The notes under the pieces were generated by a model, which was given only the letters and a program-made list of their open reading frames with translations, was not told the DNA's origin and did not search any database. From positions 1,629,001 through 1,693,000 of the forward strand of contig NC_015422.1 in NCBI RefSeq assembly GCF_000204645.1: a DNA stretch of 64,000 nt. Reading direction: 5' to 3'. A program made the translations under genes and the position numbers. Positions 1,211-33,300 of this stretch are shown in pieces (within the stretch, counting starts at the first letter, position 1; every line of letters begins with the position of its first letter). Origin of the DNA: Alicycliphilus denitrificans K601. GTDB lineage: Bacteria > Pseudomonadota > Gammaproteobacteria > Burkholderiales > Burkholderiaceae_C.

Positions 1211-1253
1211 TTTTGTGGACGCACTGCTGCCGGCAGTGGCAGTGCGTCATGGT

Positions 1254-2616: not shown

Positions 2617-2630
2617 ATTCTTCACGGTAA

Positions 2631-2660
2631 GAAAAAAAGGGCATGACAGAGTCATGCCCC
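2631..2660 (-). terminator. Rho-independent terminator of the porin gene
   Basis: On the minus strand a 9-bp stem GGGCATGAC/GTCATGCCC with a 3-nt loop is followed by seven T residues (the A run at 2632-2638). It lies about 37 bp after the porin stop codon. Confidence 0.85.
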
Positions 2661-2696
2661 AACCCTTGGAAGTAACAACTATGCGTTCGGCGCGGC

Positions 2697-3752: not shown

Positions 3753-3816
3753 AGTCAAGGGTCTCCTTCGAGGTGGGTGAAAAATGTGCTGTCGTGCGTT
3801 TGCGCCGGGGCGCCGT

Positions 3817-4785
3817 TCATTCCTTGGCGTAGCCCAGGTCGGTCGCCACCTTCTCGGTCCGCGCGGCGTCTTCCTTCAGGAATTTCGTGAACTCCTCGGG
3901 GCTCATGCGGCCCGCTTCGGCGGCGTCGTTGCGGAAGCGCTTCTTCACGGGTTCGCTGGCCAGCGCCGTGCGCAGGGCCTTGGCCAGGCGCGGAACGACG
4001 TCCTTGGGCACGTTGGCCGGGGCCAGCAGGCCCAGGTACACGTAGAAGCTGTAGTTCGGCAGCCCCTGCTCGGCCAGGGTGGGGATGTCCGGGAAGACGG
4101 GGGAGCGGGTGGTCGAAGTGATGCCGAAGGCGCGCAGCTTGCCTTCCTTGACCAGCGGGCCGGAGGAGTTGGCGCCGTCGAACATCACGTTGGCGCGGCC
4201 GCCCACCACGTCGGGCAGGGCCGCCGCGGCGCCCTTGTAGGGCACGTCCAGGAACTTGGTGCCCGTCTGGTGGAAGAACAGAGCGGCCGCCATGTGCACG
4301 CTGGTGCCCTTGCCCGCGTGGGCCATCACCAGCTGGCCCGGCTGGGCCTTGGCGTTGGCGATGAGCTCGGCCAGCGTCTTGCTGGGCTGGCCGGGCGGGC
4401 CCACGAACAGGAAGGGCGCGCGGTTCATCATGCCGATGCCGGTGAAGTCCTTCTCCAGGTCGTAGCCGGGCTCCTTGCGGAACGCGGGCAGCTGGGCGAC
4501 GGTGTTGGCCGCGGCCAGCAGCGTGTAGCCGTCGGCGGGCGCGGCCTTCACGGCGCGGATGCCCAGCAGGCCGTCGGCGCCGGGGCGGTTCTCTATGACG
4601 ATGGGCTGCCCCAGGTCCTTGGACATCTCCTGCGCGACGACGCGCGTCGTCACGTCCAGCAGCGCGCCGGGCGACGAGTGGACGATGATGCGGATGGGAC
4701 GGCTGGGATAGGTGTCGGCCTGCGCGGGCAGGGTGCCGAACGCCACGAGGGTGCATGCGGCCAGGAAGCGGCGCTTGCTGGTCAT
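3817..4785 (-). CDS. Bug-family (TctC) periplasmic solute-binding protein
   Basis: Extracytoplasmic receptor of 322 aa in the tripartite tricarboxylate transporter receptor family. A signal peptide (MTSKRRFLAACTLVAFGTLPAQA) precedes YPSRPIRIIV, the usual mature start. Family hallmarks: GQPIVIENRPGADGLLG near residue 60, PADGYTLLAAANT near residue 90, YDLEKDFTGIG near 108 and PDIPTLAEQG near 225. No TctA/TctB membrane partners are in the window, which is common for these orphan receptors. Ligands are usually carboxylates, which would suit a locus that activates an acid to a CoA ester. It is divergent from the livHMGFK operon and shares a roughly 600-bp control region with it. Confidence 0.93.
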   Translation of the reverse strand: MTSKRRFLAACTLVAFGTLPAQADTYPSRPIRIIVHSSPGALLDVTTRVVAQEMSKDLGQPIVIENRPGADGLLGIRAVKAAPADGYTLLAAANTVAQLPAFRKEPGYDLEKDFTGIGMMNRAPFLFVGPPGQPSKTLAELIANAKAQPGQLVMAHAGKGTSVHMAAALFFHQTGTKFLDVPYKGAAAALPDVVGGRANVMFDGANSSGPLVKEGKLRAFGITSTTRSPVFPDIPTLAEQGLPNYSFYVYLGLLAPANVPKDVVPRLAKALRTALASEPVKKRFRNDAAEAGRMSPEEFTKFLKEDAARTEKVATDLGYAKE

Positions 4786-5042
4786 TGTTTGTCGTCTCCT
4801 TTATTTAAGCTAGCGTTAGTTTGGTTTTGCGGTATGGAAAGGCGCAATGCACCGGCGCTGCTTGTTCCGTACATCGGCGAAAAAGCGCGTTTGCGTGTCT
4901 GTTTTTGATGAATGTCAGTGGGCCCCGGCCGCGCGGGCCATCAGGCATAAGGGCCGGCGCACGCGGCAACGCCTGCGCCGGCCGGGCCCGTGCGCACCGG
5001 GCCGCGCAGCGGCATGCCGCCGCGCCCATTCGCGGCGCGTGA

Positions 5043-5057
5043 TTCCGCTTTGCAGAA
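5043..5057. promoter_or_regulatory. Candidate IclR operator, imperfect copy (liv promoter region)
   Basis: TTCCGCTTTGCAGAA, an imperfect 7-1-7 palindrome. The identical 15-mer occurs at 13886-13900 upstream of the SDR gene. Here it lies 124 bp (centre to centre) from a perfect copy at 5167-5181. The gene-free stretch 4786-5383 also has a GC-rich segment, 4930-5040, in which I see nothing else. Confidence 0.65.
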
Positions 5058-5166
5058 CATGAGGGACGGCATGCCGCCGTGCCCGTTTCGTGGGGAATGG
5101 GCCGCCTGGAGAGTCATCTAGGTGACTGGAGAAGCGCCCGCACCGTCGGTATTTACCCTGGAGTTG

Positions 5167-5181
5167 TTCTGCATTGCAGAA
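5167..5181. promoter_or_regulatory. Candidate IclR operator, perfect palindrome (liv promoter region)
   Basis: TTCTGCATTGCAGAA is a perfect palindrome around a central T. The same 15-mer recurs at 13796-13810 upstream of the SDR gene. It is 203 bp upstream of livH. The length and TGCA-TGCA character fit operators bound by IclR-family dimers, and an IclR gene lies at 14004-14801. Confidence 0.7.
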
Positions 5182-5383
5182 TCGCCGGAAATCGGCCGCG
5201 CGGCGCTGGCTAAGCTGCGCCCGCAACCCTGCAGACGCCTGCCCCGCAGTGGCCGGAGCATGGCCCGGGGTGGTGCTTGAACCCGAGGAGGAGTGAGACG
5301 ATGCGGACAGCTCTGGATGTGAACGCAGCCCCCCGCGCCCGCCGGTGGCGCGGGCCGGCGATCGGTGCGAGGAGGGGCGGCTG

Positions 5384-6247
5384 ATGGAGATGCTCATGCA
5401 GCAGGTCCTCAACGGGCTGACCCTGGGGGGCATCTACGGCCTCGTGGCGCTGGGGCTGACGCTGGTGTACGGCATCCTGCACGTGCCCAACTTCGCGCAC
5501 GGCGCGTTCTACATGGTGGGCGCGTTCGTGGCCTTCCATGCGATGAACGCCTGGGGCTGGGGCTACTGGGTCGCCATGCTGGCCGCCGCGGCGGTGGTGG
5601 CGGCCCTGGCGGTGGTGAGCGAGCGGCTGGTGTTCCACCCGCTGCGCAAGGCGTCGGGCATCCACCCGATGATCGCGGCCATCGGCGTGCTGCTGTTCCT
5701 GGAGGCCGGGGCGCAGGCGCTGTGGGGCGCGGACTTCCAGCGCATGCCCACGCCCTACACCTCCATCGTCGAGATGGGCGGCATCACGGCGCCGGCCCAG
5801 CGCCTGCTGATCATCGCCGCGGCCTTCGCGCTGATGGTGGCGCTGCACCTGTTCCTCACGCGCACGACCACGGGCTCGACCATCATCGCCATGGCCCAGA
5901 ACCGCGAGGGCGCGTCGCTCGTGGGCATAGACGCCAACCGCGTGTCCATGCTGACCTTCGCCATCTCGGGCATGCTCGCGGCCGTGGCGGCCACGCTGTA
6001 CGCGCCCATCAATCTGGTCTACCCGGCCATGGGGAACCTGGTCATCACCAAGGCCTTCGTGATCATCATCCTGGGCGGCATGGGCAGCGTGCCCGGCGCC
6101 ATCGTGGGCGGCCTGATCATCGGCTTCGCCGAGAGCTTCGGGGCCTTCTACATCTCCACCGACTACAAGGACATCGTCGCCTTCGTGCTGCTGGTGGTCA
6201 TCCTGTCGCTGCGCCCGCAGGGCCTGTTCGCGAAGAGGGGGCACTGA
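5384..6247 (+). CDS. livH: Branched-chain-type ABC transporter permease LivH
   Basis: Inner-membrane permease of 287 aa of the HAAT (LivH) family. The start MEMLMQQVLNGLTLGGIYGL is characteristic, followed by ALGLTLVYGILHVPNFAHGAFYMVGAF, the conserved N-terminal signature. About eight hydrophobic segments are visible, and NREGASLVGIDANRVSMLTFAISG near residue 178 is the cytoplasmic loop that docks the ATPases. GAGGAGGGG sits at the right distance before the ATG at 5384. Its stop overlaps nothing, and livM starts on the very next base. This is the first gene of livHMGFK. HAAT systems carry amino acids, amides, urea or aromatic acids; context favours an acid feeding the CoA ligase. Confidence 0.95.
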   Translation: MEMLMQQVLNGLTLGGIYGLVALGLTLVYGILHVPNFAHGAFYMVGAFVAFHAMNAWGWGYWVAMLAAAAVVAALAVVSERLVFHPLRKASGIHPMIAAIGVLLFLEAGAQALWGADFQRMPTPYTSIVEMGGITAPAQRLLIIAAAFALMVALHLFLTRTTTGSTIIAMAQNREGASLVGIDANRVSMLTFAISGMLAAVAATLYAPINLVYPAMGNLVITKAFVIIILGGMGSVPGAIVGGLIIGFAESFGAFYISTDYKDIVAFVLLVVILSLRPQGLFAKRGH

Positions 6248-7222
6248 ATGAGCGGATTCATCGACAGCCGCGCCGGCTGGGGCCTGCTGCTGGCCGCCAG
6301 CCTGGCGTTCCCCTGGGTCGCGGGCAACGACTACCACCTCACGGTGATGAGCACGGCCTACATCTTCGCCATCGCCACGCTGGGCCTGAACCTGATCACG
6401 GGCTACACGGGGCAGCTCAACCTCGCGCACGCGGGCTTCATGGCCGCGGGCGCCTACACCGTGGGCATTCTCACGGTGGACCATGGCTGGCCCTTCTGGG
6501 GCAGCCTGGTGATGTCGGGCGTGGTGTGCATGGTGCTGGGCTACCTGATCGGCGTCGTGTCGCTGCGCCTGAAGGGCCACTACTTCTCGATCTTCACGCT
6601 GTGCGTGGGCTACATCATGTTCCTCGTGATCGAGAAGTGGGAGGGCCTGACCCACGGCACGGTGGGCATCATGGGCATCCCGGCGCCGGAGGCCATCGGC
6701 GCGCTGAGCTTCGAGTCGCCGCTGGCGCTGTACTACCTGGTGCTGGCCTTCCTCGTGCTGTCGGTCTGGGCGATGCAGCGCATCGTCAAGTCGCTGCTGG
6801 GCCGCACCTTCATCGCCATACGCAACAGCGACGAGCTGGCCGAGGCGCTGGGCATCAACCTCATGCGCAACAAGGTGCTGGCCTTCATGCTGAGCGTGGT
6901 CTACGCGGGCGTGGCGGGCGGCCTGTACGCGGGTTTCGTGCGCTTCATCGGGCCGGACATGGCCGGCGTGCACCACACCTTCGACATGATGATCTTCGCC
7001 ATGGCCGGCGGCTTGGGCACGGTGCTCGGGCCGCTGCTGGGGTCGATAGGCATGCCCTGGCTCACGCAGTACCTGCAGTTCCTGCAGGAGTACCGCTTCA
7101 TCGTCTTCGGGCCCATTCTCGTGATGCTGGTGATCTTCATGCCCTACGGCGTGGTGGGCAGCGTCACCGCATGGCGCGCGCGCCGCAATGCCAGGAAGGG
7201 GCAGCAGCATGCTCAAGATTGA
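6248..7222 (+). CDS. livM: Branched-chain-type ABC transporter permease LivM
   Basis: Second membrane subunit of 324 aa. The signature LGLNLITGYTGQLNLAHAGFMAAGAYT (residues about 47-73) is the LivM hallmark, and IRNSDELAEALGINLMRNKVLAFMLSVVYAGVAGGLYAGF near residue 197 is the ATPase-coupling loop and following helix. The ATG follows the livH stop directly, and the end overlaps livG by 14 bp, so translation is probably coupled. Confidence 0.95.
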   Translation: MSGFIDSRAGWGLLLAASLAFPWVAGNDYHLTVMSTAYIFAIATLGLNLITGYTGQLNLAHAGFMAAGAYTVGILTVDHGWPFWGSLVMSGVVCMVLGYLIGVVSLRLKGHYFSIFTLCVGYIMFLVIEKWEGLTHGTVGIMGIPAPEAIGALSFESPLALYYLVLAFLVLSVWAMQRIVKSLLGRTFIAIRNSDELAEALGINLMRNKVLAFMLSVVYAGVAGGLYAGFVRFIGPDMAGVHHTFDMMIFAMAGGLGTVLGPLLGSIGMPWLTQYLQFLQEYRFIVFGPILVMLVIFMPYGVVGSVTAWRARRNARKGQQHAQD

Positions 7223-7973
7223 CCACCTGACCAAGCGCTTCGGCGGCCTGGCCGCCGTGAACGACGTGAGCACCGTGATCGAGGAGGGCAGGATCAACGC
7301 CATCATCGGCCCCAACGGCGCGGGCAAGACGACGTTCTTCAACCTCATCAGCTGCGTGCACAAGCCCACCAGCGGCACCATCACCTTCGACGGGCGCGAC
7401 GTGACGTCGCTGCGCACCGACCAGGTGGCCCGGCTGGGCGTGGCGCGCACCTTCCAGACCACCACGCTGTTCGACCGCTCCACCGTGCTCGACAACCTGA
7501 TCGTGGGCCACCGCCTGCGCACGCATTCGGGCCTGTGGGACGTGCTGCGCGGCTCCAGCCGCCTGCGCGAGGAGGAGCGCGTGTGCCGCGAGAAGGCGCG
7601 CGAGGCGCTGGACTTCGTGGGCCTGTCGCGCGTGGCCCACCGCCTGGCGGGCGACATCACGCAGGAGGAGCGCAAGCGCGTGGCCTTCGCGCTGGCGCTC
7701 TCCACCGACCCGCGCCTGATGCTGCTGGACGAGCCGGCTGGCGGCGTGAACCCCGAGGAGACCGAGGGCCTGGCCGAGCTCATCCGCAAGATCGTGCGCC
7801 ACGGCATCACGGTGGCGCTGATCGAGCACAAGATGAACATGATCATGAGCCTGGCCGACAAGATCCTGGTGCTCAGCTACGGCGAGAAGATCGCCGAGGG
7901 CACGCCCGAGGAGATCCGCCGCAACCCCGCCGTGATCGACGCCTACCTGGGGAGCGAGCATGCTGAAGTTTGA
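7209..7973 (+). CDS. livG: ABC transporter ATP-binding protein LivG
   Basis: ATPase of 254 aa that powers the LivHM pore. Walker A is [12 protein letters not shown] near residue 34, Walker B is [13 protein letters not shown] near residue 174, and the switch His lies in [27 protein letters not shown]. The ABC signature is unusual: where LivG proteins usually read LSYGxQRR, this one has [16 protein letters not shown], with no SGG or YGQ core. The start at 7209 gives the canonical [13 protein letters not shown]; a frame opening at 7188 only adds residues overlapping livM. It overlaps livM by 14 bp and livF by 14 bp. Confidence 0.95.
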
Positions 7974-15170: not shown

Positions 15171-16400
15171 TCAGCCCCGCCGCGGCGCGTGCCGGCGCGC
15201 CAGCGCCGCCGATGCCGCCAGCAGCACCAGGCTCGTCGCCAGCATGAGCCACAGCGTGCCCGCGTGGCCCCAGCCGTCGAGCGCGAAGGCCAGCGCCACG
15301 GGCGCCGCCGCCGAGAGCACGAAGGCCGGCTTCAAGACCGCGCCGACGATGCGCCCGTAGCTCGCCGTATCGAACAGCAGCAGTGGCATGGCGCCGCGCG
15401 TGATGGTGGCGATGCCGTTGCCAGCGCCGTAGAGGAAGGCGAATGCCGCCGCGCCGTACAGCGTCGTGCCCACCACGAGCGAGACCGCGTAGCCGCCGGC
15501 CAGCAGGGCGCTGGGCAGCAGGTTGAGCCGGATGGCGTTGTAGCGGTGGCCCCAGGCCACCACCCACACCCGTCCCGTGAACTGCCCTATGCCCAGCAGC
15601 GCCGACAGCGTCACGGCCACCGAGGCGCTCCACCCCAGCCCCCGCAGCAGCTCGATGAAGTGCGCGGAGATGCCGGTCTGCATCACCATCGCGAGCACGG
15701 CGACGAGGCCGTAGAGCAGCGTGTCGGCGCGCGCCGGTGCAGCCCCGGGCCCGCCGGCCGGGGCCGCATGCCGCGGCGCATGGGCCGCGACCCGCGCCGC
15801 CGGAATGGCCAGGTGCAGGCCCGAGGCCAGCAGCAGGAACAGCGCATACACCCCCAGCGCGCCGCGCCAGCCCAGCGCCTGCGCGAGCGCCTGCCCCAGC
15901 GGCCAGAACACCGTGGAGGCCAGCCCGCCGAAGAGCGTGATCTGCGACATGGCCCGCTTGGAGGCCGCGCCGCCCAGGTGGGCCAGCGCCGCGAAGGCCG
16001 CGTCGTACAGCGCCAGCCGCATGCCCAGGCCCAGCAGCGCCCAGCCCGCCAGGTACTGGGCCGCGCCCGTGGTGGTGGCCAGCAGCGCGCAGCCGGCCGC
16101 GCCGATCCAGCAGCCCGTCATCATGGCGGCGCGGCCACCCTGCGCGTCGATCCAGCGCCCGGCCAGCGCCGACGCGCCGCCCATGACCACCAGCGCCAGC
16201 GAGAAGCCGCCCTGCACGAAGGCCGCACTCCAGCCCATCTCCTGCCCGATGGGCCGGCCAAAGACCGCTATGAGGTAGTGCATCGTGCCCCAGGCGACGA
16301 GCTGCGAGAGACCCAGGCACACGACCAGGGTCGCCCCGATGGAGGAGTCGCCCGGCGGCTGCATCGCGGGGCTGGAGGGGAGGGGTTTTCCGTGCGTCAT
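15171..16400 (-). CDS. Major facilitator superfamily transporter
   Basis: Inner-membrane transporter of 409 aa with about 12 hydrophobic segments. The N-terminal helix LVVCLGLSQLVAWGTMHYLI and the loop ALAGRWIDAQGGRAAMM after TM2 match the MFS loop 2-3 pattern. The central loop is Ala/Pro rich (HAPRHAAPAGGPGAAPA). It resembles sugar-phosphate or drug-type MFS proteins of beta-proteobacteria, but I cannot assign a substrate. An in-frame ATG 12 codons later (16364) is an alternative start. It is convergent with the H-NS-like gene, 15 bp between stops. Confidence 0.85.
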   Translation of the reverse strand: MTHGKPLPSSPAMQPPGDSSIGATLVVCLGLSQLVAWGTMHYLIAVFGRPIGQEMGWSAAFVQGGFSLALVVMGGASALAGRWIDAQGGRAAMMTGCWIGAAGCALLATTTGAAQYLAGWALLGLGMRLALYDAAFAALAHLGGAASKRAMSQITLFGGLASTVFWPLGQALAQALGWRGALGVYALFLLLASGLHLAIPAARVAAHAPRHAAPAGGPGAAPARADTLLYGLVAVLAMVMQTGISAHFIELLRGLGWSASVAVTLSALLGIGQFTGRVWVVAWGHRYNAIRLNLLPSALLAGGYAVSLVVGTTLYGAAAFAFLYGAGNGIATITRGAMPLLLFDTASYGRIVGAVLKPAFVLSAAAPVALAFALDGWGHAGTLWLMLATSLVLLAASAALARRHAPRRG

Positions 16401-16554
16401 GGGCTGCCTGCTGACTGTAGCGGCTCACCCGCCCATCCGGGGCGGGGGCAGCGCGAAAATCCTGCGGAGCTGGAAAGCCGGCCTGAAATTCGTGTTATAG
16501 TTCCAGTCTTTCCAGGGTGCACTGCCGAACAGGCGGCGCGGAGCGGAAGAAAAC

Positions 16555-16630
16555 GCGGGAATAGCTCAGTTGGTAGAGCGCAACCTTGCCAAGGTTGAGG
16601 TCGTCGGTTCGAGACCGATTTCCCGCTCCA
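16555..16630 (+). tRNA. tRNA-Gly (anticodon GCC)
   Basis: A 76-nt cloverleaf: acceptor GCGGGAA/TTCCCGC, D-arm AGCTCAGTTGGTAGAGC, anticodon arm CAACCTTGCCAAGGTTG with GCC, T-arm GTCGGTTCGAGACCGAT, and an encoded CCA end. Followed by its own terminator. Confidence 0.97.
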
Positions 16631-16640
16631 GAAATTGCAA

Positions 16641-16664
16641 GGGAAGCCAAGGCTTCCCTTTTTT
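16641..16664 (+). terminator. Terminator after tRNA-Gly
   Basis: Perfect 8-bp stem GGGAAGCC/GGCTTCCC with an AA loop and a run of six T residues. Confidence 0.9.
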
Positions 16665-16769
16665 GTTGGCCGAAATGGTCGCTCGGCGGCGTGCAGGGGC
16701 GCGGCGGGGCATTGCGCTCGCGTGCTGCTCCAGTTACCCTGCGCCGATATACCCTGCCGGGTGGCGGGC

Positions 16770-16812
16770 GCCCCGATGGTGAAATTGGTAGACACTGCGG
16801 ACTTAAAATCTG
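16770..16812 (+). pseudogene. tRNA-Leu(UAA) 5' fragment
   Basis: GCCCCGATGGTGAAATTGGTAGACACTG is a tRNA-Leu 5' half and D-arm, followed by an anticodon arm with loop CTTAAAA (UAA). After 16812 there is no variable arm, T-arm or 3' acceptor strand: no GGTTCGA-like sequence occurs in the next 150 nt. The downstream segment instead forms an unrelated hairpin (CAAGTCC at 16819 with GGACTTG at 16867, inner GCCAC/GTGGC). It cannot yield a functional tRNA and lies 200 bp before the intact intron-containing tRNA-Leu(UAA). Confidence 0.75.
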
Positions 16813-16969
16813 TTTTGTCAAGTCCTTTCTGCTTTCGCCACCAAGCCGGAAGGTCAATAGTGGCAAGGACTTGGGAGCATCCAAGGCGTAGCTTCGCGGC
16901 TCGGCTTGATGGTCAGGAGCCAACTAGGAGCCAGCAGGGAGAGGTGTAGGCTCCAGTGCATCATGTAAT

Positions 16970-17280
16970 GCCCGAGTGGTGAAATCGGTAGACACAAGGG
17001 ACTTGAACAATTTGAGCCCTCCGGGGGAAACCCCAGAGGTGAAGCCCGTCAAAGTCGGCGAACGCCCTGGATGCCCCGGCATCCGAGCCAACGCCGAGCC
17101 AAGCCCAGGCCCAATGCCTGGGAAGGTGTAGAGAGCAGACGGCGGGCACCTACGGCTGCAAGGCTATGGTGAAGGCGTGCTCCAGACCACGAACAGCGCA
17201 CGCGCTGGCGGCGAAAGCCGAAGTGGTAAGAAAATCCCTCGCCGAAAGGCGTGCCGGTTCGATTCCGGCCTCGGGCACCA
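16970..17280 (+). tRNA. tRNA-Leu (UAA) interrupted by a group I intron
   Basis: The 5' exon 16970-17004 (GCCCGAGTGGTGAAATC...GGGACTT) and 3' exon 17231-17280 (AAAATCCCTCG...CTCGGGCACCA) join to an 85-nt tRNA with all arms: acceptor GCCCGAG/CTCGGGC, anticodon stem AGGGA/TCCCT with the 7-nt loop CTTAAAA, long variable arm CGCCGAAAGGCG, T-arm GCCGGTTCGATTCCGGC and encoded CCA. The intron splits the anticodon between U34 and A35, the same position used by the classic cyanobacterial/plastid tRNA-Leu(UAA) intron. Without splicing the anticodon is broken. Confidence 0.93.
17005..17230 (+). ncRNA. Group I self-splicing intron (IC3-like) in tRNA-Leu(UAA)
   Basis: A 226-nt ribozyme without an ORF. The 5' exon end GGACTT pairs with the internal guide GAGCCC (17014-17019), giving the expected U-G wobble at the splice site. 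P2 is capped by a GAAA tetraloop (17027-17030). P3 is GCCC-GTC with GAC-GGC-GGGC. The core strings GTCGGCGAACGCC, CAACGCCGAGCCAAGC and GAAGGTGTAGAGA closely follow the Azoarcus tRNA-Ile intron. P7 is GAGCA/TGCTC where Azoarcus has GACUA/UAGUC, a compensatory change. P9 has GGCGAAAGCC. The last intron base is G, as required. Confidence 0.92.
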
Positions 17281-17287
17281 ATTCAGG

Positions 17288-17319
17288 GGCCGCTTCTGTT
17301 GGCGCAGAAGCGGCCTTTT
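17288..17319 (+). terminator. Terminator after tRNA-Leu
   Basis: Perfect 11-bp stem GGCCGCTTCTG/CAGAAGCGGCC with a 6-nt loop, then TTTT. The T tract reads on into TTTTCAT, similar to the TTTTTCAT target of Tn4371-type elements. Confidence 0.88.
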
Positions 17320-17378
17320 CATAGGGGGCAATGACACGGCTCATCCAAGCGCGTTCAGTCAAGGTTAACTCCGCTGCG

Positions 17379-18326
17379 CTAGATGTAGTTTCTCAACACG
17401 TTGTTCCCCTCGAAGCCAAGGCGAGTGATAGGAGGACGATGTGAAGTTGCCGAGTGTGGCCGATGGAAGTTGTAGTGGTACATCCACGGCTGCAGTTCCC
17501 GCGCTCGATGTTCCGAGGACGGGTAGACGAAGGCATAGGCCCACTCGCGCAGCAAGGTCTGGATGAAGCGTTCGGCTTTGCCATTGGTCCTTGGCGTGTA
17601 GGGGCGCGTGCGGATGTGCTTGATGCCCAGGCGACGCAGCAATTTGGTGAAGCGGCGTGACTTGTAGGCCGAGCCGTTGTCGGTCATCACTCGCTCAACG
17701 TTCACGCCCAGGCTCTTGTAGTAGCGCAGTGCGGCCAGCAGGAAGGCAAAGGCGCACTTGGCCGTCTCGTCGGCGAGCATCTGGCTGAAGCCCACGCGCG
17801 AATGATCGTCGATAGCCACATGCAGCGCTTGCCAGCCGGCACGCGGGGTGTTCTGTGTGCGATCGCCCGTGACACGGTGGCCAGGCTTGTCGAAGCGCCC
17901 AAGCTTCTTGGTGTCCAGGTGCAGCAATTCGCCCGCGCTTTGGCGTTCGTAACGGCGCACGGGCACCGTGTCTTGCAACGCGGGCAAGCGCGCCACCGCA
18001 GCGGCCTTGCAAGCACGTGCCACGACGCTTATGGACAGGCCCACCCGCTCGGCAATGCACGCGTAGGTCAGGCGCTGATTGCGGCGCAGCGCCACCGCCC
18101 GCTCGAGCTTGAGGGCATCGCTGCGTCGCGGACTGCGCTCGGGTCGGGAACTGCGATCAAGCAGGCCGGGCGCGCCCTGGCTGGCCCAGCGACGCTGCCA
18201 CTTGCGTGCGGTGTGTGCGCTCAAGCCTGCGGCTGCAGCCGCAGGCTTGAGCCCGATGCGATCGATCTCGCGCACCAGATGCTCTCGACCTCTGGGCGTC
18301 ATTGAGGCATTCTTGTGGATGTTCAC
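17379..18326 (-). CDS. IS481-family transposase
   Basis: DDE transposase of 315 aa. An N-terminal helix-turn-helix (LKPAAAAAGLSAHTARKWQRRW) is followed by the rve catalytic core: LHLDTKKLG with the first Asp, VMTDNGSAYKS with the second Asp and NGKAERFIQTLLREWAY with the Glu. The GTG at 18326 gives the usual start VNIHKNA; an upstream frame to 18392 adds no family sequence. The TAG stop (17379-17381) lies in the target duplication outside the element, so the reading frame is closed by host DNA. Confidence 0.92.
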   Translation of the reverse strand: MNIHKNASMTPRGREHLVREIDRIGLKPAAAAAGLSAHTARKWQRRWASQGAPGLLDRSSRPERSPRRSDALKLERAVALRRNQRLTYACIAERVGLSISVVARACKAAAVARLPALQDTVPVRRYERQSAGELLHLDTKKLGRFDKPGHRVTGDRTQNTPRAGWQALHVAIDDHSRVGFSQMLADETAKCAFAFLLAALRYYKSLGVNVERVMTDNGSAYKSRRFTKLLRRLGIKHIRTRPYTPRTNGKAERFIQTLLREWAYAFVYPSSEHRARELQPWMYHYNFHRPHSATSHRPPITRLGFEGNNVLRNYI

Positions 18327-18480: not shown

Positions 18481-20358
18481 TCAGCCCAGATGCTCCGCAC
18501 CTCGGATTACGGCCTCGGGGAATAGATTCTGCGCCACGATCGCGGTGCGAGCCGCTGCGACATCGGGCACAAAGGCCACGACTGCCAAGTCCTTCGTTGC
18601 ACGCGAGCAGCACACATAGAAGAGGCGGCGGGTTCGATCGAGTACGGACTCTTCACCTGCCGCCAGGTTGGCTTCGTCCTTGTCCGAGAGGGGGACGTAC
18701 CCGAGATACTTCCCGTAAGAATACTGCCGGAAGCCCGCTTCCTCATCGTCGATGACGACCAATACGCGCTCAAATTGGGCACCCTTCACCCCATGATGCG
18801 TCGCGAACGGTGACTCCTCTGTAAAGTAGCGCCGGTAGGCCCAGAGTTCGTCGACACCGCATGCCAGATAGGCTTGAACGTTCTCGAAGCCGCTGCTGCC
18901 GTCATCCACAGGCTCTGCAACCAGATGCATGGCGAAGCGATCATCGAGGCGCAGCAACTCGTTATCTCGCACATGCGTCAAGACGTCCCGGATAGTCGCC
19001 TGCGATCCTGCTGCCAACAGACCGACAAGCCCGTCGAGCGCTTGCTGTAGCGCTGTAAGAACGGGGGCCGTCGCTTGCCCTCGAAGCCGCGCTGGTTCAA
19101 GCCTCGGGCATTCGCTGCGCAAGGTCGATATCACTGTGAACCGATCACCCGCTTGCGCCGCGACAACGAGCGGAAGTATGTGCTGGACAAGTGGACGGAG
19201 CGGCCAGGCTGTGCCATCGCTCAGCCCTTCACTCAGACTCATGGGGGCTCGGTCATTGAGCGCAGCATACAGATTAGGGAACCCGAGCCGGTTGGCCGCC
19301 ATGCGGTGCACCAGTACAAGCAGGCGGACATCGCCTTCCCGCACGTCGCTTAGCCACAGACCGTCGCCGGTTTCGGCGGCCAGCCACTGCCTAATGGCCG
19401 CGAGGCGCGCACTCCGCTCCGCGTCCGCCGGCAGGATGAACAGATTGGAGGTACCGGCAACCGGCTGCTCGATGCCATCAACGGTTATCGTCCGACCACG
19501 CACCTGCTCAAGACCGTCGCCAGGGGCGCGGATTGCATTGATGACCCCGAGCACCGATGTCGGGCACCGGAAGTTCTCGGGCTTTGTGATCTCCGCCCAG
19601 CCGTCGTTCAGCGGGACAGTGCCTACTCCGCTCATATAGATCTTCTGCATCGGGTCTCCGAAGAACCCGACACACAGGCCAGGATGTTCGCCCGCAATGT
19701 GCCGTAACGCCTCGACGACCTCCGGATTGGTGTCTTGGCTCTCATCGACGAAGATGTAGGGAAAGCGCTTAGCGACGAGTTGTCTCAGCAGCGGATGCGC
19801 TGCGACGCAGGCTGGGGTGAGCTTGAGGATATCGTCATGGCCAAGGATGCCTTCAGCGTAGCTGCTGCCGGTGCCGTAGACGAACTTCTCTACTTCACTG
19901 ATCGCAGCCAGATCGGCTTCGAGATCTGCGATCTCCTGTTCGAGGCGGGCCTTCGTTTTCGCCTGAGTCCGAGGCTTGTCGTAGTGTGCGCGTCGCTCCG
20001 CGATCTTCTCGTCGATGCGGATGGCTACCCAAGCCGCGATATCCGAATGGAACGGCCGGATGACTGACCACAGGAAACTGTGGATGGTCGAGATGTGGAA
20101 TAGCGGCGAGGCCCCGACATCGGCCGAAATCTCACCGACGGCGACTTCGGTATATGTGATGCAGGCGATTTGTTGCCCGGCGCGGCGCAGGGCAGGACCG
20201 CGGGTCTCGGCTAGGTGCGCCATAGCCTTGATCAGCGAGGTCGTTTTCCCCGACCCCGCACCGGCGACCATGACAAACGAGCGTGGCGGCATCCGATCGA
20301 GACACGCTCGAACATCTAGATCGGCTTGTGTGTCAGGACTGCCGATCCGGCTTGTCAT
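18481..20358 (-). CDS. gajB: UvrD/PcrA-like ATP-dependent helicase, Gabija GajB-like
   Basis: SF1 helicase of 625 aa. Motif I is VAGAGSGKTTS at residues 31-41, motif Ia is ITYTEVAVGEI, motif II is FVDESQDTNPE near 203, motif III is FFGDPMQKIYMSG near 234, and motif VI is RRLFYVCCSRATKDL near residue 587. A coiled-coil-prone insertion lies near residues 130-155 (QAKTKARLEQEIADLEADL). It overlaps the upstream OLD-nuclease gene by ATGA, the usual arrangement of class 2 OLD/UvrD pairs, including Gabija anti-phage systems. In those systems the nuclease and helicase act together, so splitting of the partner gene probably leaves this one without function. Confidence 0.82.
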   Translation of the reverse strand: MTSRIGSPDTQADLDVRACLDRMPPRSFVMVAGAGSGKTTSLIKAMAHLAETRGPALRRAGQQIACITYTEVAVGEISADVGASPLFHISTIHSFLWSVIRPFHSDIAAWVAIRIDEKIAERRAHYDKPRTQAKTKARLEQEIADLEADLAAISEVEKFVYGTGSSYAEGILGHDDILKLTPACVAAHPLLRQLVAKRFPYIFVDESQDTNPEVVEALRHIAGEHPGLCVGFFGDPMQKIYMSGVGTVPLNDGWAEITKPENFRCPTSVLGVINAIRAPGDGLEQVRGRTITVDGIEQPVAGTSNLFILPADAERSARLAAIRQWLAAETGDGLWLSDVREGDVRLLVLVHRMAANRLGFPNLYAALNDRAPMSLSEGLSDGTAWPLRPLVQHILPLVVAAQAGDRFTVISTLRSECPRLEPARLRGQATAPVLTALQQALDGLVGLLAAGSQATIRDVLTHVRDNELLRLDDRFAMHLVAEPVDDGSSGFENVQAYLACGVDELWAYRRYFTEESPFATHHGVKGAQFERVLVVIDDEEAGFRQYSYGKYLGYVPLSDKDEANLAAGEESVLDRTRRLFYVCCSRATKDLAVVAFVPDVAAARTAIVAQNLFPEAVIRGAEHLG

Positions 20359-22384
20359 GCCGCTACCTCGTCGCCGGCGGCGACTGGTGCCCCCTGGGGC
20401 GCGTCCTCATGCGGCTGGCCCTCATGCGGCTGGTCCTCGTCCGGTTCCGGCGGCGCAATCTCGGTCTCAAGCCAGCTCAGGCCCTCGGCGATATAGGTTG
20501 GGACAGACCAACTGCTCGGATCTTCGGCTAACAAGGCGAGCGCGAAGTCGGTCTTGCTGAAGCTCTTAGCCTGCACGCGCTTGTGGATGCGTTCCGCAAG
20601 CGTGGTCAGGTTCTTCTCGTCGGCCTTGGCGATGCGGAGCTGAAGCGGCTTACGGTTCTTGTCCTGACACCATTCAAGATTTTCGAGTGCGAATGCTTCC
20701 TCCAGCGTGCGCCCGGCTAGCGCCAGGGTTTCTCCGCCCCAAGTGACATCGGTCCGGCACTGATAGGCAACGCGTACCAAAGCGTCATTGTCGTCCGTCC
20801 TCGCCTGGATCTTCTGCTCAGCCGTCGCCTCCCACAGGGCGGCGACCGTGTCGCATTTCGGTAGCCATTGGAGCAAAGTCTGATTGGACGTCGCCGCGCC
20901 CGGATGACCGGCTATGCACGCCTTCCCGGGCTTCTCCGCAGCCACAGGCAAATCGTCCTCGTCATCGTCAATGTCCTCAGCGTCAGCGCCGGCAGCCTGC
21001 GCGTTCTCGGCGGCTGGTTCCGCGGCTTCCGGTTGACCAGCGGGTGCCGCACCCTCGCCATCCTGCCCCAGTGGACCGAACACGCTGTCGAGATCGGTGA
21101 TGATGAGCGTTGTCAGTCCGAGAAACTCGATCAGCGTTTTGAATCGGTAGCCGAACGCTCCGCCGATCTCTAGGACGGTGAGATAGGTCGATTGCAGCCG
21201 CGGCGCGGCATTGGCGATCATCTGCGGCAATAGCAGCCGTTCGACATTGCCTTCGACCAGCACGGCGCCATCGGCGAAGAACAGATCGCAGTGCGCGAGT
21301 TTCAAATAGCGCTCGAGGAAGCTTCGGATGTCCGGATCGGTGCTGTCGTAGAAAACCGAGAGGTTGAGCACATCGGAGGTCGACACATTCTGTGCACGGC
21401 TTCGACGAAAATAGCGGATCGGCCGGAAGCCTCGTTCGTAAAGGATATGAGTCGAATGGGTCGTGACGACGACCTGGCTCGTATAGTGCGTGCGGTCCTC
21501 GCCCTTGAGCGCTAGGATGTCCATCACCTTGCGTATGAAGGCCTGTTGAAGCTGGGCATGGAGGTGCGCTTCGGGCTCCTCGATGAAGATCAGGTGGACC
21601 GGCGGACGGTTTTCCTCGATCGCCAGCCATTGAGCGTGGAGGTCGAGCAGCTCAACGACCATGAAGATGAGGTTTTTGAAGCCAAGACCGTTATACCGAT
21701 CGGGCAAGGTAGGCGGGTCGGGCTTCCCGTCATCGGCTCCCAACGCATAGTGAACGATCGCGCCATCTCGACCGCTCATGATCTGGGCAGGGTCGAGGGC
21801 CGAGCGGATCATCATGCGCGGGTTTGAGAGGCCCGGATAGCCGAGCTTCGACAAGCTCTTGAGCGTCGGTTCGAACACTCGTTCGAGATGCTCATTAAGC
21901 GAGACTTCGGATGCTGCGAGGGCGCGCAACGCTTCGATATCTTCGCCTTTCTGTTCGAGGTTGCGCCCGTAGAAGCGACTGAGTACACGGGAGAGATCCT
22001 CGGCGCGAGAGCCACCTGGGCCGTCCGAGAGATGGCGCTGTGCGTTCAAGAAGTCAATGTGGAGAAGGCCGTTCAAGATCTCACGGCCGCTCCGGTCGCG
22101 TCCGGTGAGAGTGGCTGGGTCATAGCCAGCCTCTGCGACCATCTTCGCATCGAACCGCGCGGGATCGAGTACGAAATAGCGCAGCTCATATTCGTCATGT
22201 AGCCTGTCGCGAAGGAACTCCCGCAGGTTACGTGGCGAGGGATCGAAGGCGGGTGCTCCGTCTTCACCCTTAGCGACCGCATCGAGCACGCGCTGGCGCA
22301 CTTCGACATAGCGTGCATGCGTCGCCGCAGGATTGGTGGGCGCGTTGAACAGCCCCGGATTTCGAGGAGGCACCAACTCTTGAG
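20355..22384 (-). pseudogene. gajA: OLD-family nuclease, Gabija GajA-like, C-terminal part (IS-split)
   Basis: About 675 residues carrying the distal ATPase motifs and the TOPRIM nuclease domain of an overcoming-lysogenization-defect protein. Walker B and D-loop read LIFIEEPEAHLHAQLQ, followed by QVVVTTHSTHIL. The TOPRIM domain has VLVEGNVERLLLP (catalytic Glu) and LIITDLDSVFG (DxD). The Walker A half of the protein is missing here but present at 23636-24014, on the other side of an IS3-family element. A linker near residues 460-510 is rich in Ala, Asp and Glu. Any translation from internal starts would lack the ATP site. Confidence 0.82.
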
Positions 22385-22395
22385 AAGATGGAGCC

Positions 22396-22719
22396 ATGAA
22401 CAAGTCACCGAAGTTCTCCCCGGAAGTCCGCGAGCGCGCCGTTCGCATGGTGCAGGAGCACCGAGCCGACTACCCGTCGCTGTGGGCAGCCATTGAATCG
22501 ATTGCGCCCAAGATTGGCTGCGTGCCGCAGACCTTGAATGACTGGGTCAAGAAGGCCGAGGTCGACAGCGGCCAGCGCCCCGGCACCACCACGGCAGACG
22601 CCCAGCGCATCAAGGAACTGGAGCGTGAGGTCAAAGAGCTGCGCCGGGCCAACGACATCCTGAAGACGGCCAGCGCGTTTTTCGCGCAGGCGGAGCTCGA
22701 CCGCCGATTGAAGTCTTGA
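22396..22719 (+). CDS. IS3-family transposase OrfA
   Basis: DNA-binding protein of 107 aa. The helix-turn-helix [16 protein letters not shown]...[18 protein letters not shown] is followed by a leucine-zipper-like helix ([22 protein letters not shown]) that mediates multimerisation in IS3 elements. OrfB begins in the -1 frame just before the OrfA stop (TTG at 22716), the position for a programmed -1 frameshift. The C-terminal [13 protein letters not shown] segment is typical of this subgroup. Confidence 0.9.
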
Positions 22720-23631
22720 AGAACTACATCGACCGCCACCGTGATGACTACGGGGTCGAGCCCATCTGCCGGGTGCTGCAGATGGCCCCGTCGTGTTACT
22801 GGCGCCACGCAGCCCGGCAACGCAACCCGCAACTGCGCAGTCAACGCGTCCAGCGTGACGAGGGTTTGAAAGCCGACATCCAGCGCGTGTGGCACGCCAA
22901 CTGGCAGGTCTACGGGGCCGATAAGGTCTGGCTGCAGATGAACCGCGAGGGCATCGCAGTGGCGCGCTGCACGGTCGAGCGCCTGATGCGTGCCATGGGC
23001 TTGCAAGGAGCACGCCGTGGCAAGACAGTGCGCACCACCACGCCGGACACATCGGCACCGTGCCCGCTGGACCACGTCAACCGGCAATTCAAGGCCAGCC
23101 GGCCCAACGAGCTGTGGGTGTCGGACTTCACCTACGTCTCCACCTGGCAGGGCTGGTTGTACGTGGCCTTCGTGGTGGACGTGTACGCCCGGCGCATCGT
23201 GGGCTGGCGGGTCAGCCGCAGCATGCAAACGGACTTCGTGCTGGATGCGCTGGAGCAGGCGCTGTATGACCGCCAGCCAGCACGCCCATGCCTTGACGCA
23301 CCATTCCGACAGGGGCAGTCAATACGTTTCCATACGCTACACCGAACGCTTGGACCAGGCGGGTATCCAGCCATCAGTGGGCAGCCGGGGTGACAGCTAC
23401 GACAACGCACTGGCCGAGACCATCAACGGGCTGTACAAGGCCGAGCTGATTCACCGCCGGGGACCCTGGAAGACCAGGGAATCCGTGGAGCTGGCCACCC
23501 TGCAGTGGGTGCACTGGTTCAATCACGTCCGACTGCTCACGCCGATTGGGGGCATCCCTCCGGCAGAAGCTGAGGCAAACTACTGGAGGCAACTCGCCGT
23601 CAGCGACACCTCGACAGAGGTGTCAACTTAA
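22716..23631 (+). pseudogene. IS3-family transposase OrfB, frameshifted
   Basis: The N-terminal part has the HTH_21 region and rve core start (NELWVSDFTYVSTWQGWLYVAFVVDVYARRIVGW) up to about 23270-23285. There the reading frame changes by +1: the continuation THHSDRGSQYVSIRYTERL, with the second catalytic Asp, and NALAETINGLYKAELIHRRG, with the Glu, are read in the next frame. Without a second recoding event the DDE triad cannot be assembled in one protein. Whether it is a true mutation or a sequencing error cannot be told here. Confidence 0.85.
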
Positions 23632-28384: not shown

Positions 28385-28603
28385 CTACCTTGCGTGGCGT
28401 CTAAATCCCCGGTCCCCCGCCATGAACGCCTCCAGCATATGCGGGATCAGCGTCATGGCGTCGACCGTCTCGCCATACGTCTGTGCGTGCAGCGCGGCGT
28501 AACGATCGAGGTCTGCCTTGAGGCTGCCCGAGCAAACAAAGGTCAGCTTGACGCTCTCGGTCTTGGGCAGCGGCCCGAGTCGCAGCTTGCGGGTCGTGCT
28601 CAT
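28385..28603 (-). CDS. DUF2274 protein, end of trb operon
   Basis: Small cytoplasmic protein of 72 aa found next to trbI in Tn4371-type elements. It begins MSTTRKLRLGPLPKTESVKLTF, family-typical, and has no membrane segment. It overlaps trbI by ATGA and so is translated with it. The function is unknown. It is the last gene of the trb operon and abuts the HNH remnant. Confidence 0.85.
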   Translation of the reverse strand: MSTTRKLRLGPLPKTESVKLTFVCSGSLKADLDRYAALHAQTYGETVDAMTLIPHMLEAFMAGDRGFRRHAR

Positions 28604-29886
28604 CTCGAACTCCCCCGGTTGAAGAACAGCGGCTGATAGGGGCGGAGAACCAGGTCGCGGTTGACGATGATCCGCACCGGCAAACCCGGCCGTTCGGTCA
28701 GCGTCGGCTGGATGTTGAGGTTGCGCCGGGTCATTTCCTGTCCGACCTGGTTCACGCTGTCCTGCAAGCTGTCGCGTCCGGCGATGATGACGCGGTCGCC
28801 GTTCTGGCGGTTCCCCGGCGAGGCCAACTCGGCACCGACGCCCAGCAGCGTCGTCAGGGCGGCGCCGGCGAAGATGCGATCCCAATGCCAATCGACACCA
28901 TCCTCCAGGCCGGCATAGCCGGCCGGGTCGGTGCCGGCCAGGTTGTCCAGCGTCAACGAGGACGTGTCCGGCAGAATGATCCGGTTCCACACCACCTGCA
29001 CCCGGCTCTGGCCGTAGCTGACCTGGCTGTTGTAGCGCCCGAGGATGCGCGCCCCCTGTGGAATCAGCAGATGCCGGCCCGTAGCCGTGTCGTAGACAGG
29101 CTCCGTCACCGTAGCGATCACGTCGCCCGGCAAGTCCGACTTGATGCCCGTCACCAGCGCGCCCGCGATCACGGTTCCGGCCATCACCTGATACGGAGAC
29201 GCCGGCAGCGCCAGGTTGCCGGAGTTGCGGGTTTCCGTAGAACCGGCTTTCAGGAACGCTTCTTTCTGGTCTTGCCGGTTCTGCACGGTCGTCGGGTCGG
29301 CGGGCTGGGCCGCCGTCGAGGCAGGCCCGGCAGCGAGAGGAGCGAAGGCCGCGAGTGTGTTTGCAACACCAGGCGCACCCGGCGCAGCTTGCGCGACCGT
29401 GGTGGCGGCCTGGCCCTGGGCGCCCGAGCGGAAGAACACCGACGAGGCCGCCGCCGCGTCCGCCTCCTTGCGCAAGGCATCTTCGGGATCATGGCCTGGC
29501 GGCGAATAGCCCGGCGTCACCGGCTGCTGCGAAGCGACGATGGCCGGGCCAAGGTCGCCGGGCAACGGCGGCCCCAGCTCGGGCACATCGGGCGGCAAGG
29601 CTGGTGGCAGCTTCGAGTAATCCGTCGGCAGCGCATCCAGTCCTTCGGACTTCGAGACGCGATCGACGTTGTAAAGCTCGGTTTGCTCGCCCGTACCGCG
29701 CCGCTGCGGTTGCAGCGACCAGATCGTGGCCCCAAGCACGGCGACCGACAGGCCGCCGACGAGGATGGCCAGCGTGCGCCGGTTCAGGCGCGTGACCGGG
29801 CGCGGCTGGGCGCGCAGCGCCACCGCCTCGGGCGCGACCTTGCCCGCCTGCGGCGTGGCGAGGTCGGGGGTGTTGTCCTGGCTCAT
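28600..29886 (-). CDS. trbI: Conjugal transfer protein TrbI (VirB10-like)
   Basis: Type IV secretion core-complex protein of 428 aa spanning inner and outer membrane. A cytoplasmic N-terminus is followed by one membrane helix (LAILVGGLSVAVLGATIWSL, residues 39-58), a long Pro-rich periplasmic region (PPALPPDVPELGPPLPG) and a C-terminal beta-barrel domain (PASPYQVMAGTVIAGALVTGIKSDLPGDVIATV, LLIPQGARILGRYNSQV). All are VirB10 hallmarks. It links ATPase energy to the outer-membrane pore formed with TrbG. Confidence 0.95.
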   Translation of the reverse strand: MSQDNTPDLATPQAGKVAPEAVALRAQPRPVTRLNRRTLAILVGGLSVAVLGATIWSLQPQRRGTGEQTELYNVDRVSKSEGLDALPTDYSKLPPALPPDVPELGPPLPGDLGPAIVASQQPVTPGYSPPGHDPEDALRKEADAAAASSVFFRSGAQGQAATTVAQAAPGAPGVANTLAAFAPLAAGPASTAAQPADPTTVQNRQDQKEAFLKAGSTETRNSGNLALPASPYQVMAGTVIAGALVTGIKSDLPGDVIATVTEPVYDTATGRHLLIPQGARILGRYNSQVSYGQSRVQVVWNRIILPDTSSLTLDNLAGTDPAGYAGLEDGVDWHWDRIFAGAALTTLLGVGAELASPGNRQNGDRVIIAGRDSLQDSVNQVGQEMTRRNLNIQPTLTERPGLPVRIIVNRDLVLRPYQPLFFNRGSSR

Positions 29887-29888
29887 GG

Positions 29889-30872
29889 TCAGTTCCTCCG
29901 TGCCACGCCATCCGTGCGCTCGATCCGCACCACGTCGCCCTTGTCACCGCCCAGGCGCAGTTCGGCCGCGCCGAACAGCCGATCCACGATGTAGTACGGC
30001 GAGCGGAAGCGGTAGTTCACCAGTTGCCCGTCGCCCTGCGCGCCGATGACAAACAGCGGCGGCAGCTCGCCTTGCGCGATGCCCGCCGGAAACTGGATAT
30101 AGACCTTTTCGCCGTCATCGAACGCACGCAGCGGCTTCCAGGGCGGATTGCTGCCGCTGATCGCGTAGCGGAAGCGCAGGTTCTCCAGCGCCAGCCCGGT
30201 ATCGACAGGCGCGGCGGCATTGGCCGCCTGCGCCTGACGCTGTAGCGCCAGCATCCGGTCGCGCGGATACTCCCAGGACACGGACGCCATCCACGTCTTC
30301 TCCGTCGAAGCCAGCTCCAGCAGGTACGTCCTGCGGCTGGTGGTAATGACGAGATTGGTCTTGAGGCCCGAGCGGATCGGCTTGACCAGCACGTTCACGC
30401 GCAGGTCGGCACCGCTACCGCTGGACGTGTCGCCCACGATCCAGCGCACGGTATCGCCGGCGGCCACCGTCACCAGTTCCTCGCCCGGCTGGAGCGAAAC
30501 CACGGTCACACGGCCGACGGCCGCATAGACCTGATACAGCGCGCCATCGGTGAAGGGCCAGACCTGAATCGCATTGACGTAGCCCTCGCGCGTGGGCGCG
30601 ACGCGGGCCTCGGCATTGGCGCGCGAGACGCGCACCTTCTCGTCGGCCGGCTCCGGCGCGGGTTTGGCGTCCTCGAGCGGCTTCAACTGCGCCGGCATTG
30701 GCAGCACCTCGGGCACGGCCACCACTTCCACCGGCGCGGGCGGCTCCGGCAGCGGCTGCGCCTGCACCGGCTCATCGAGCGAGATGGTTGGCGGTGGCTT
30801 GCCCTGCGAGGCGCAGCCCGCGAGGGCGAGCAGGATCGCCGGCAAAGAGGATTTACGGAAAAGATCATTCAT
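29889..30872 (-). CDS. trbG: Conjugal transfer protein TrbG (VirB9-like)
   Basis: Outer-membrane core protein of 327 aa. The N-terminus MNDLFRKSSLPAILLALAGCASQG is a lipoprotein signal with LAGC lipobox. A Pro-rich stretch (VQAQPLPEPPAPVEVVAVPEVLP) leads to the VirB9 domain with VWPFTDGALYQVYAAVGRVTVVSLQPGEEL and TSRRTYLLELASTEKTWMASVSWEYP. The C-terminal DRLFGAAELRLG is typical of the domain that joins the VirB10 barrel. It overlaps trbF by ATGA and is 2 bp from trbI. Confidence 0.95.
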   Translation of the reverse strand: MNDLFRKSSLPAILLALAGCASQGKPPPTISLDEPVQAQPLPEPPAPVEVVAVPEVLPMPAQLKPLEDAKPAPEPADEKVRVSRANAEARVAPTREGYVNAIQVWPFTDGALYQVYAAVGRVTVVSLQPGEELVTVAAGDTVRWIVGDTSSGSGADLRVNVLVKPIRSGLKTNLVITTSRRTYLLELASTEKTWMASVSWEYPRDRMLALQRQAQAANAAAPVDTGLALENLRFRYAISGSNPPWKPLRAFDDGEKVYIQFPAGIAQGELPPLFVIGAQGDGQLVNYRFRSPYYIVDRLFGAAELRLGGDKGDVVRIERTDGVARRN

Positions 30873-31573: not shown

Positions 31574-31585
31574 GGTCAGTTCTCC

Positions 31586-33288: not shown

Positions 33289-33300
33289 GGCGGCCTCCCG

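Follow-up and report, generated by a model that had tools for sequence, protein, structure and literature searches.

Results

An intron-split tRNA-Leu(UAA) gene lies next to a broken one

The window analysed here is a 64,000-nucleotide stretch of the Alicycliphilus denitrificans K601 genome (G000; contig NC_015422.1, positions 1,629,001 to 1,693,000). It contains a tRNA-Leu(UAA) gene interrupted within the anticodon by a 226-nt intron, the 5′ half of an intronless tRNA-Leu(UAA) gene and most of an integrative and conjugative element (ICE). The features are as follows, in window coordinates unless a prefix is given.

16770-16810, plus strand: 5′ half of the host's intronless tRNA-Leu(UAA) gene, through the attL core (rejoins with the 3′ half; intact in genomes G819 and G821)
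16802-16810, plus strand: attL core CTTAAAATC, reverse complement GATTTTAAG (identical 9 bp at the right end, L176:16512-16520)
16811-16969, plus strand: left end of the element, 159 nt (contains CTAGGAGCCAG at 16924-16934)
16970-17004, plus strand: 5′ exon of the putative replacement tRNA-Leu(UAA) (ARAGORN intron mode)
17005-17230, plus strand: group I intron, 226 nt, within the anticodon between U34 and A35, dividing CTT/AAAATC (ARAGORN; Rfam 32.1 bits, below cut-off; covariation)
17231-17280, plus strand: 3′ exon of the putative replacement tRNA-Leu(UAA), with CCA end (ARAGORN)
16811-64000, no strand assigned: window part of the 63.7-kb ICE (conjugation genes), which runs on to about G000:C1:1709520
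28600-40651, minus strand: TrbI, CagX/TrbG, TrbL, TrbE, TrbB-type ATPase and TraG coupling protein (Pfam)
52968-55340, minus strand: relaxase with DUF3363 (Pfam)
G000:C1:1708133-1709335, minus strand: tyrosine integrase beside the 3′ half (Phage_integrase 65.1 bits, Arm-DNA-bind_3)

Run in intron mode, ARAGORN reads 16970-17280 as a tRNA-Leu(taa) gene whose nucleotide 35 is followed by an intron of 226 nt. This reproduces exactly the exons that the original prediction had drawn from the letters alone (16970-17004 and 17231-17280), as well as the insertion point it had named, between U34 and A35. In default mode the program missed the tRNA, and Rfam at its gathering threshold called neither tRNA nor intron at 16970-17280. 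The covariance match that had been anticipated for Intron_gpI (RF00028) was obtained as far as the E-value goes (2.7e-6), but its 32.1 bits fall short of the curated cut-off of 50. The related introns L281 and L318 (36.8 and 35.8 bits) likewise score below 50, and a whole-genome RF00028 search at E 0.001 left the window intron unmatched. T17004 sits in P1 (CTTGAA/TTTGAG), where the U at the 5′ splice site is paired with G, and the last base of the intron is G17230; the splice-site wobble and the terminal G had both been predicted. The claim of an Azoarcus-like core agrees with the Rfam match, the ARAGORN call and the 76-intron alignment described next.

The intron core is conserved and widespread in tRNA-Leu(UAA)

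A one-genome-per-species scan gave at least 120 stretches with the two core motifs (121 including the window). These 121 listed stretches comprise 75 tRNA-Leu(taa) genes, 24 with the label tRNA-Met(cat), five in which no tRNA was called and a remainder of other kinds; given the 75 tRNA-Leu(taa) cases, the same core is frequent in tRNA-Leu(UAA). Within the window's order it was found in 20 of 399 genomes (about 5%). No second exact copy of the core was found in G000.

That the insert is a group I intron, as originally proposed, is borne out by the ARAGORN reading and by covarying core helices in an alignment of 76 introns (70 distinct rows, with a single Leu(CAA) intron, after exclusion of four Leu(taa) rows for which ARAGORN placed the intron elsewhere). 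Pairing in P3, P4, P7, P8 and P9 holds in 94-100% of cells (P7 and P8 100%, P4 99%, P3 94%) and falls to 21-52% for these core helices when one strand is slid by one column. Two-sided changes occur at 4 of 7 pairs in P3, 0 of 6 in P4, 3 of 5 in P7, 3 of 4 in P8 and 2 of 4 in P9. Outer helices are less regular (80-87% paired; P1 95%, P6a 85%), and P2, with 3 two-sided changes vs 4 in the slid version, shows no gain over the control. All 76 introns end in G; the exon ends are CTT/AAAATC in 75, the remaining one being the Leu(CAA) gene. Judged from this alignment, the ribozyme core fold is conserved across the 70 distinct introns, and the precursor would be expected to self-splice. At 226 nt, the intron offers little room for a homing endonuclease gene as its mover.

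An ICE separates the two halves of the host gene

The broken tRNA-Leu half at 16770-16810 (GCCCCGA...GGACTTAAAATC), about 160 nt upstream of the intron-tRNA, had gone unmentioned in the original prediction. A whole-genome search and reading located the matching 3′ half at G000:C1:1709512-1709571 (L176:16512-16571). When the two are rejoined, ARAGORN recognizes a tRNA-Leu(taa) with an acceptor stem paired at 7 of 7 positions. The other half being found at the element's far end, a chance tRNA fragment upstream of the intron-tRNA is ruled out. The two CTTAAAATC cores are 63,710 bp apart. An 11-bp sequence at 16924-16934, CTAGGAGCCAG, occurs also at the right end (by script) and is a candidate arm-type repeat for the integrase; its left copy stops 35 nt short of the intron-tRNA. 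The inner sequence of the left end, TCTGTTTTGTCAAG, recurs in other tRNA-Leu(UAA) elements, in some of them with small changes. The left-end pattern had no exact match in viral contigs, and a strict promoter search within 16400-17450 gave no match.

Besides the conjugation genes and the integrase, the element holds a ParB-type gene and a RadC-like gene (the latter by eye). Pfam finds the markers of the Tn4371 family: integrase, relaxase, traG and trb genes. The att sequence of the ICEKKS102Tn4677 subtype, GATTTTAAG, is present as its reverse complement CTTAAAATC at both ends. The classic Tn4371 att, TTTTTCAT in the parts of the literature available to us, is not present at the ICE ends, where the core is CTTAAAATC; in this the window ICE differs from classic Tn4371. 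On these features we take the element as a Tn4371-family ICE of the ICEKKS102Tn4677 type.

The ICE and its genome show several further features. Close to the left end, window positions 18481-22448 encode a Gabija pair (GajB-type helicase and GajA-type OLD nuclease). Near the integrase, three TIR-like ThsB-type proteins are clustered with MazG_C, UDG-like and Nmad2 genes (L176 9066-14235). Rfam places an ALIL pseudoknot in an IS-type transposase region (window 22674-22790). A second, 92% identical copy of the integrase occurs in G000 at C1:3137955-3139157 (L211); the right end of this copy, GGCTTAAAATCCATAAATT, lies at a non-tRNA site, and no left end turned up within 99 kb.

Above the Rfam cut-off, 48 tRNA genes were counted in G000, with Leu anticodons CAG (twice), CAA, UAG and GAG. 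Among the tRNAs found, none other than the intron-tRNA has the UAA anticodon. Were both tRNA-Leu copies dispensable, the intron-tRNA could be a dead relic. UUA is a rare codon (none of the 154 Leu codons of four core genes, and 8 of 786 in 13 ICE genes). It is used by the ICE genes all the same, no other UAA tRNA was found, and the ribozyme core helices are constrained over the 70 distinct introns; we consider the relic reading very unlikely.

Occupied and empty sites occur in the same genus

Empty sites were sought with a 216-nt joined-flank query in 39 genomes, G000 included. In G819 and G821, of the same genus, the site is uninterrupted and holds an intact, intronless tRNA-Leu(taa) gene; this gene follows a Gly-Cys-Gly cluster (Cys-Gly in the stretch fetched from G821). 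In a third member of the genus, G818, the gene is split at the same point and 58.6 kb separate its halves; the right-hand side holds a 97% identical integrase, the left-hand side an intron-tRNA-Leu(taa). The same survey returned the right half only in G817, and the left half with the intron-tRNA in G820, which is probably the same genome as L107 and was left out of the element count given below.

The arrangement recurs, in part with a closely similar integrase

Once the five stretches without an ARAGORN intron tRNA had been removed, 116 loci were compared. The comparisons used 34 nt and covered up to 1.5 kb upstream of each intron-tRNA. A broken 5′ half is present in 18 of the 75 Leu(taa) loci listed, the window included (23-31 of 34 positions, 73-193 nt upstream, same strand). 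The other 57 reach no more than 21, with less than 700 nt of upstream sequence for seven of them and 20 nt for L078. Downstream or on the opposite strand, none of the 116 loci listed exceeds 22 of 34. A locus labelled Phe and read as Leu (L116) has a broken half at 27 of 34, and so does one of the two Leu(CAA) loci listed (L092, 24 of 34).

The integrase of this ICE was then sought in 18 of the 19 Leu-group genomes, that is, those of the 17 Leu(taa) loci with a broken half besides the window, plus L116 and L092, with L026 left out. It is matched at 85-97% identity in nine, in pieces (80-93%) in one and at 66% in one; at E 1e-30 the other seven gave no match. The 3′ half of a tRNA-Leu adjoins the integrase in all 11 genomes with a match. 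As a control, 22 genomes with an intron-tRNA and no broken half, drawn from the 57 loci above, gave no integrase of at least 85% identity and four of 65-69%. These four, and most of the similar integrases elsewhere, lie at terminator-like A-tracts or in tRNA-Leu(CAA) (by eye). Most integrases of 65-70% identity adjoin A-tracts, several of them followed by hairpins, as in L190 with ATGAAAAA (by eye). A class-wide search (369 genomes) added no integrase of at least 85%, L286 and L287 being matched at 69%, nor did 116 plasmid records (60-80% identity).

When 15 pairs of halves, taken from 14 genomes, were put back together, ARAGORN recognized a tRNA-Leu in every case, 13 with anticodon taa and two with caa. 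The acceptor stem pairs at 7 of 7 positions in 14 of them (G402a by eye) and at 6 of 7 in G008. Mixing halves from different hosts makes a weak control, common acceptor stems often pairing equally well across hosts; it is telling mainly for G014 (2-5 of 7 when mixed), G017 and G000, and for G008 several mixed halves pair better (7 vs 6). With G818, which was read and not rejoined, the elements number 16, from 15 genomes; all have an intron-tRNA close to the left half. In G001, G004, G009 and G013 the two halves fall on different contigs; the other 12 elements have them on a single contig. A pattern for the intact gene is absent from 14 of 15 element-bearing genomes (G820 included) and present in all seven relatives picked for an empty site; it fits all 13 rejoined UAA genes, and a divergent second copy could slip past it. 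The exception, the draft assembly G013, has an intact tRNA-Leu(taa)-like gene elsewhere.

Such data bear on the possibility that 16970-17280 is an ordinary intron-bearing host tRNA gene, with the upstream fragment and the ICE as chance neighbours. Introns of this kind are frequent in the class, and tRNA clusters do gather fragments. Against chance, however, cognate halves lie at both ends of the element in 15 of 15 rejoined cases (11 on one contig), filled and empty sites coexist inside one genus, and identical introns occur across different host families. We regard such a coincidence as extremely unlikely.

Two of the 16 elements are inserted in tRNA-Leu(CAA) genes (G017 and G402b), and these carry an intron-tRNA-Leu(CAA) (L092 and G402b), from which it appears that the replacement matches its target. 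By eye, the G402b intron would have C-G instead of U-G at its 5′ splice site. G035 also has a Leu(CAA)-type right end, but 80 kb of its sequence yielded no broken 5′ half. Twelve of the elements had been found through the intron and four by other routes (G402a, G402b and G404 via the integrase, G818 via the empty-site query). All four of the latter have the intron.

Introns of ICEs and of other loci are intermixed

In a tree of 80 introns (six of them Ile2), the 20 ICE-borne rows require 7 label changes, vs 18.1 in shuffles, none of 500 shuffles being as low; support values are rough and six rows sit on very long branches. Over the columns kept, Lysobacter L037 and G404 (the latter a member of the window's order) have identical introns. 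Since ICE-borne introns intermix with the others in the tree, exchange between ICEs and host genes is likely.

Related arrangements involve other tRNAs

The Met(cat)-labelled loci, which we read as Ile2, have a broken 5′ half in 9 of the 24 listed (27-32 of 34, 140-440 nt upstream). No complete 3′ half was found in these loci or beside the integrases fetched; L117 has a short 3′ tail at 6208. For this group the arrangement is thus half-proven. The idea that the same integrase serves the tRNA-Ile2(CAU) cases was rejected: no close match was found in 12 genomes (those of the nine loci with a 5′ half, of L080 and L086, where such a half is not clear, and of L075, the tRNA-Arg case), the single match having 28% identity. 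In Polynucleobacter (L061), two Ile(CAU)-type intron-tRNA 3′ ends lie near 3205 and 4924, 1.7 kb apart, possibly as tandem elements.

A more distant case comes from another phylum. In a Fimbriimonadaceae assembly (L075, about 1250-7910), a 6.5-kb element splits a tRNA-Arg(UCG) gene and carries a cognate intron-tRNA-Arg(UCG). The broken half matches at 33 of 34 positions, the halves rejoin to tRNA-Arg(tcg), and two genes match Phage_integrase, one slightly below the family cut-off.

Finally, Gordonia phage Daredevil (L284, NC_048021.1) has an unannotated tRNA-Lys(ttt) with a 238-nt intron at 1419-1730, in the order integrase, attP-like CGGACTTTTAATCCGC, intron-tRNA-Lys(ttt). The usual TTC is missing from the T-loop of this tRNA (by eye), and an Rfam search at E 0.01 detected no intron at the locus. 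In the part of the published account available to us, the phage is described as not encoding a tRNA-Lys replacement and as forming clear plaques (PMC10865867). The intron-tRNA-Lys evidently escaped notice there, but the clear plaques suggest that it does not work well.

Intron-tRNAs were also seen on plasmids. The one in pCTX-M3 (L281, 2495-2793), called Stop(tta) by ARAGORN and read by us as tRNA-Leu(UAA), is preceded by CGGACTTAAAA at a distance of about 190 nt; a 501-nt query matched in some part 1286 plasmid records, of which five were inspected. pBB1 (L279) and L280, both Cupriavidus plasmids, have a similar left end and a truncated intron-tRNA-Leu without its 3′ part.

Discussion

The most probable explanation of this locus, which we hold with considerable confidence, is that a Tn4371-family ICE splits the host's single tRNA-Leu(UAA) gene in the anticodon loop and carries a cognate, intron-split replacement. 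Sequence analysis establishes that the gene is split with both halves still present, that an element lies between them and carries the replacement, that the intact gene is lost and that the ribozyme fold is conserved. The tyrosine integrase would insert the ICE into the anticodon loop of the sole tRNA-Leu(UAA) gene. The attP and attB sites having just the 9 bp of CTTAAAATC in common, the host gene would be split and not rebuilt. The complete tRNA-Leu(UAA) gene, about 160 nt inside the left end and in the same orientation, would serve as the replacement, its spliced product presumably supplying UUA decoding. Transcription, we would guess, may enter this gene from the host tRNA side.

In the middle of the replacement gene's anticodon loop, the intron divides the CTTAAAATC core. 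With less confidence, we propose that a core split in this manner at the DNA level could not be taken by the integrase as a second target, while splicing would restore the anticodon loop in the RNA. A replacement without the intron would show CTTAAAATC in the anticodon stem, like attB. Left uninterrupted some 160 nt from attL or attP, it would invite deletion or further insertion. Drawn from the logic of the sequence, this shield role has about an even chance of being correct. The same balance applies to the broader proposal that group I introns act as att-site shields in the cognate replacement tRNAs of ICEs, small integrative elements and phage, and that such elements also spread the introns; it might hold or fail with equal ease. 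If true, elements as vehicles of the intron would explain why group I introns are so patchy in bacterial tRNA genes. Against our explanation of the locus stand the 57 of 75 Leu(taa) intron loci listed that have no broken half in the upstream sequence compared (up to 1.5 kb), the intron living also outside such elements.

These loci are among the reasons to weigh a simpler account, in which the tRNA is a real replacement and the intron a neutral passenger, the ancestral ICE having taken its tRNA-Leu gene from an intron-bearing host. The presence of the core in 20 of 399 genomes of the order sample agrees with it, as does the intermixing in the tree (7 label changes for 20 ICE rows); furthermore, replacement tRNAs are described for actinobacteriophages with no mention of an intron in the accessible part of that work (PMC10865867). 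What weighs against a mere passenger is that the intron is present in all four elements found by routes other than the intron, vs a genome background of about 5%, and that it is seen again in the cognate tRNA of the Leu(CAA) branch, in the tRNA-Arg(UCG) gene of a 6.5-kb element from another phylum and in a tRNA-Lys gene beside a phage attP. We give this account a real, though minority, chance.

Neither the intron nor the element is new in itself. Group I introns known from bacterial tRNA genes sit in the anticodon loop and have an Azoarcus-like core; one in a gamma-proteobacterial tRNA-Leu(UAA) was reportedly published by Vepritskiy et al. in 2002. They are known in cyanobacterial tRNA-Leu and Azoarcus tRNA-Ile (PMC3984707) and in tRNA-Leu-TAA of Thiomargarita and BOGUAY (PMC4853749). 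The window intron is a further member of this group, and the link between cyanobacterial and beta-proteobacterial introns raised in the original prediction is not where the unusual character of the locus lies. In the passages of these two papers that we could consult, by contrast, no intron is said to travel on an integrative element that disrupts the cognate tRNA gene. As for the ICE, the att repeat printed for ICEKKS102Tn4677 and ICEbphKF708 is GATTTTAAG (PMC11448139, PMC6563109, PMC9960961, PMC2789088). Like the window ICE, they have this sequence (the reverse complement of CTTAAAATC) and tra/trb genes, and they are of similar size, about 62 kb. The word intron does not occur in the main texts of these four papers, and their accessible passages mention no replacement tRNA.

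A close parallel is the tRNA-dependent lysogeny of actinobacteriophages (Guerrero-Bustamante and Hatfull 2024, PMC10865867). According to the text available, these phages, like the ICE, use a short core (about 10 bp), destroy the host tRNA gene and carry a cognate tRNA gene; they turn to secondary sites if the carried tRNA is missing. They differ from the present case in being phages rather than ICEs, and in the same text the word intron occurs solely in a reference title (PMC10865867). The locus described here combines a 9-bp core, truncation of both halves and a cognate tRNA on the element, all features of tRNA-dependent integration. The integrant may depend on the carried tRNA for its survival, no other UAA tRNA having been found in G000. 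Islander genomic islands also use a tyrosine integrase and an anticodon-loop crossover; unlike the ICE, they carry an attP tRNA fragment that rebuilds the target, as described in the part of the source at hand (PMC4383910). For archaea, it is likewise proposed that tRNA introns are brought by mobile elements (Sugahara 2012, PMC3293823; PMC8371274) and that an intron in an att-bearing tRNA gene bars further elements (PMC3293823). From the sections available, the archaeal introns differ in that they are spliced by protein and in that attP carries the intron and the tRNA is rebuilt (PMC3293823, PMC8371274).

Among the matches listed from the open-licence literature, neither the titles nor the opening lines of the abstracts point to a replacement tRNA that contains an intron and is carried by an integrative element. 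Group I tRNA introns, this type of ICE and tRNA-dependent lysogeny are each known, and it is their combination for which the literature searched holds no report. We regard the intron-split replacement on an ICE as a previously undescribed form of tRNA-dependent integration.

The ICE setting changes the meaning of the intron-tRNA, which becomes cargo of the very element that split the host's own gene. Default-mode tRNA finders overlook such genes, as exemplified by the intron-split tRNA of Daredevil, functional or not. The older idea that tRNA introns guard against integration becomes assayable by recombination. Bacterial tRNA introns thereby gain a possible job and a possible vehicle, and a ribozyme would be tied to the life cycle of a conjugative element.
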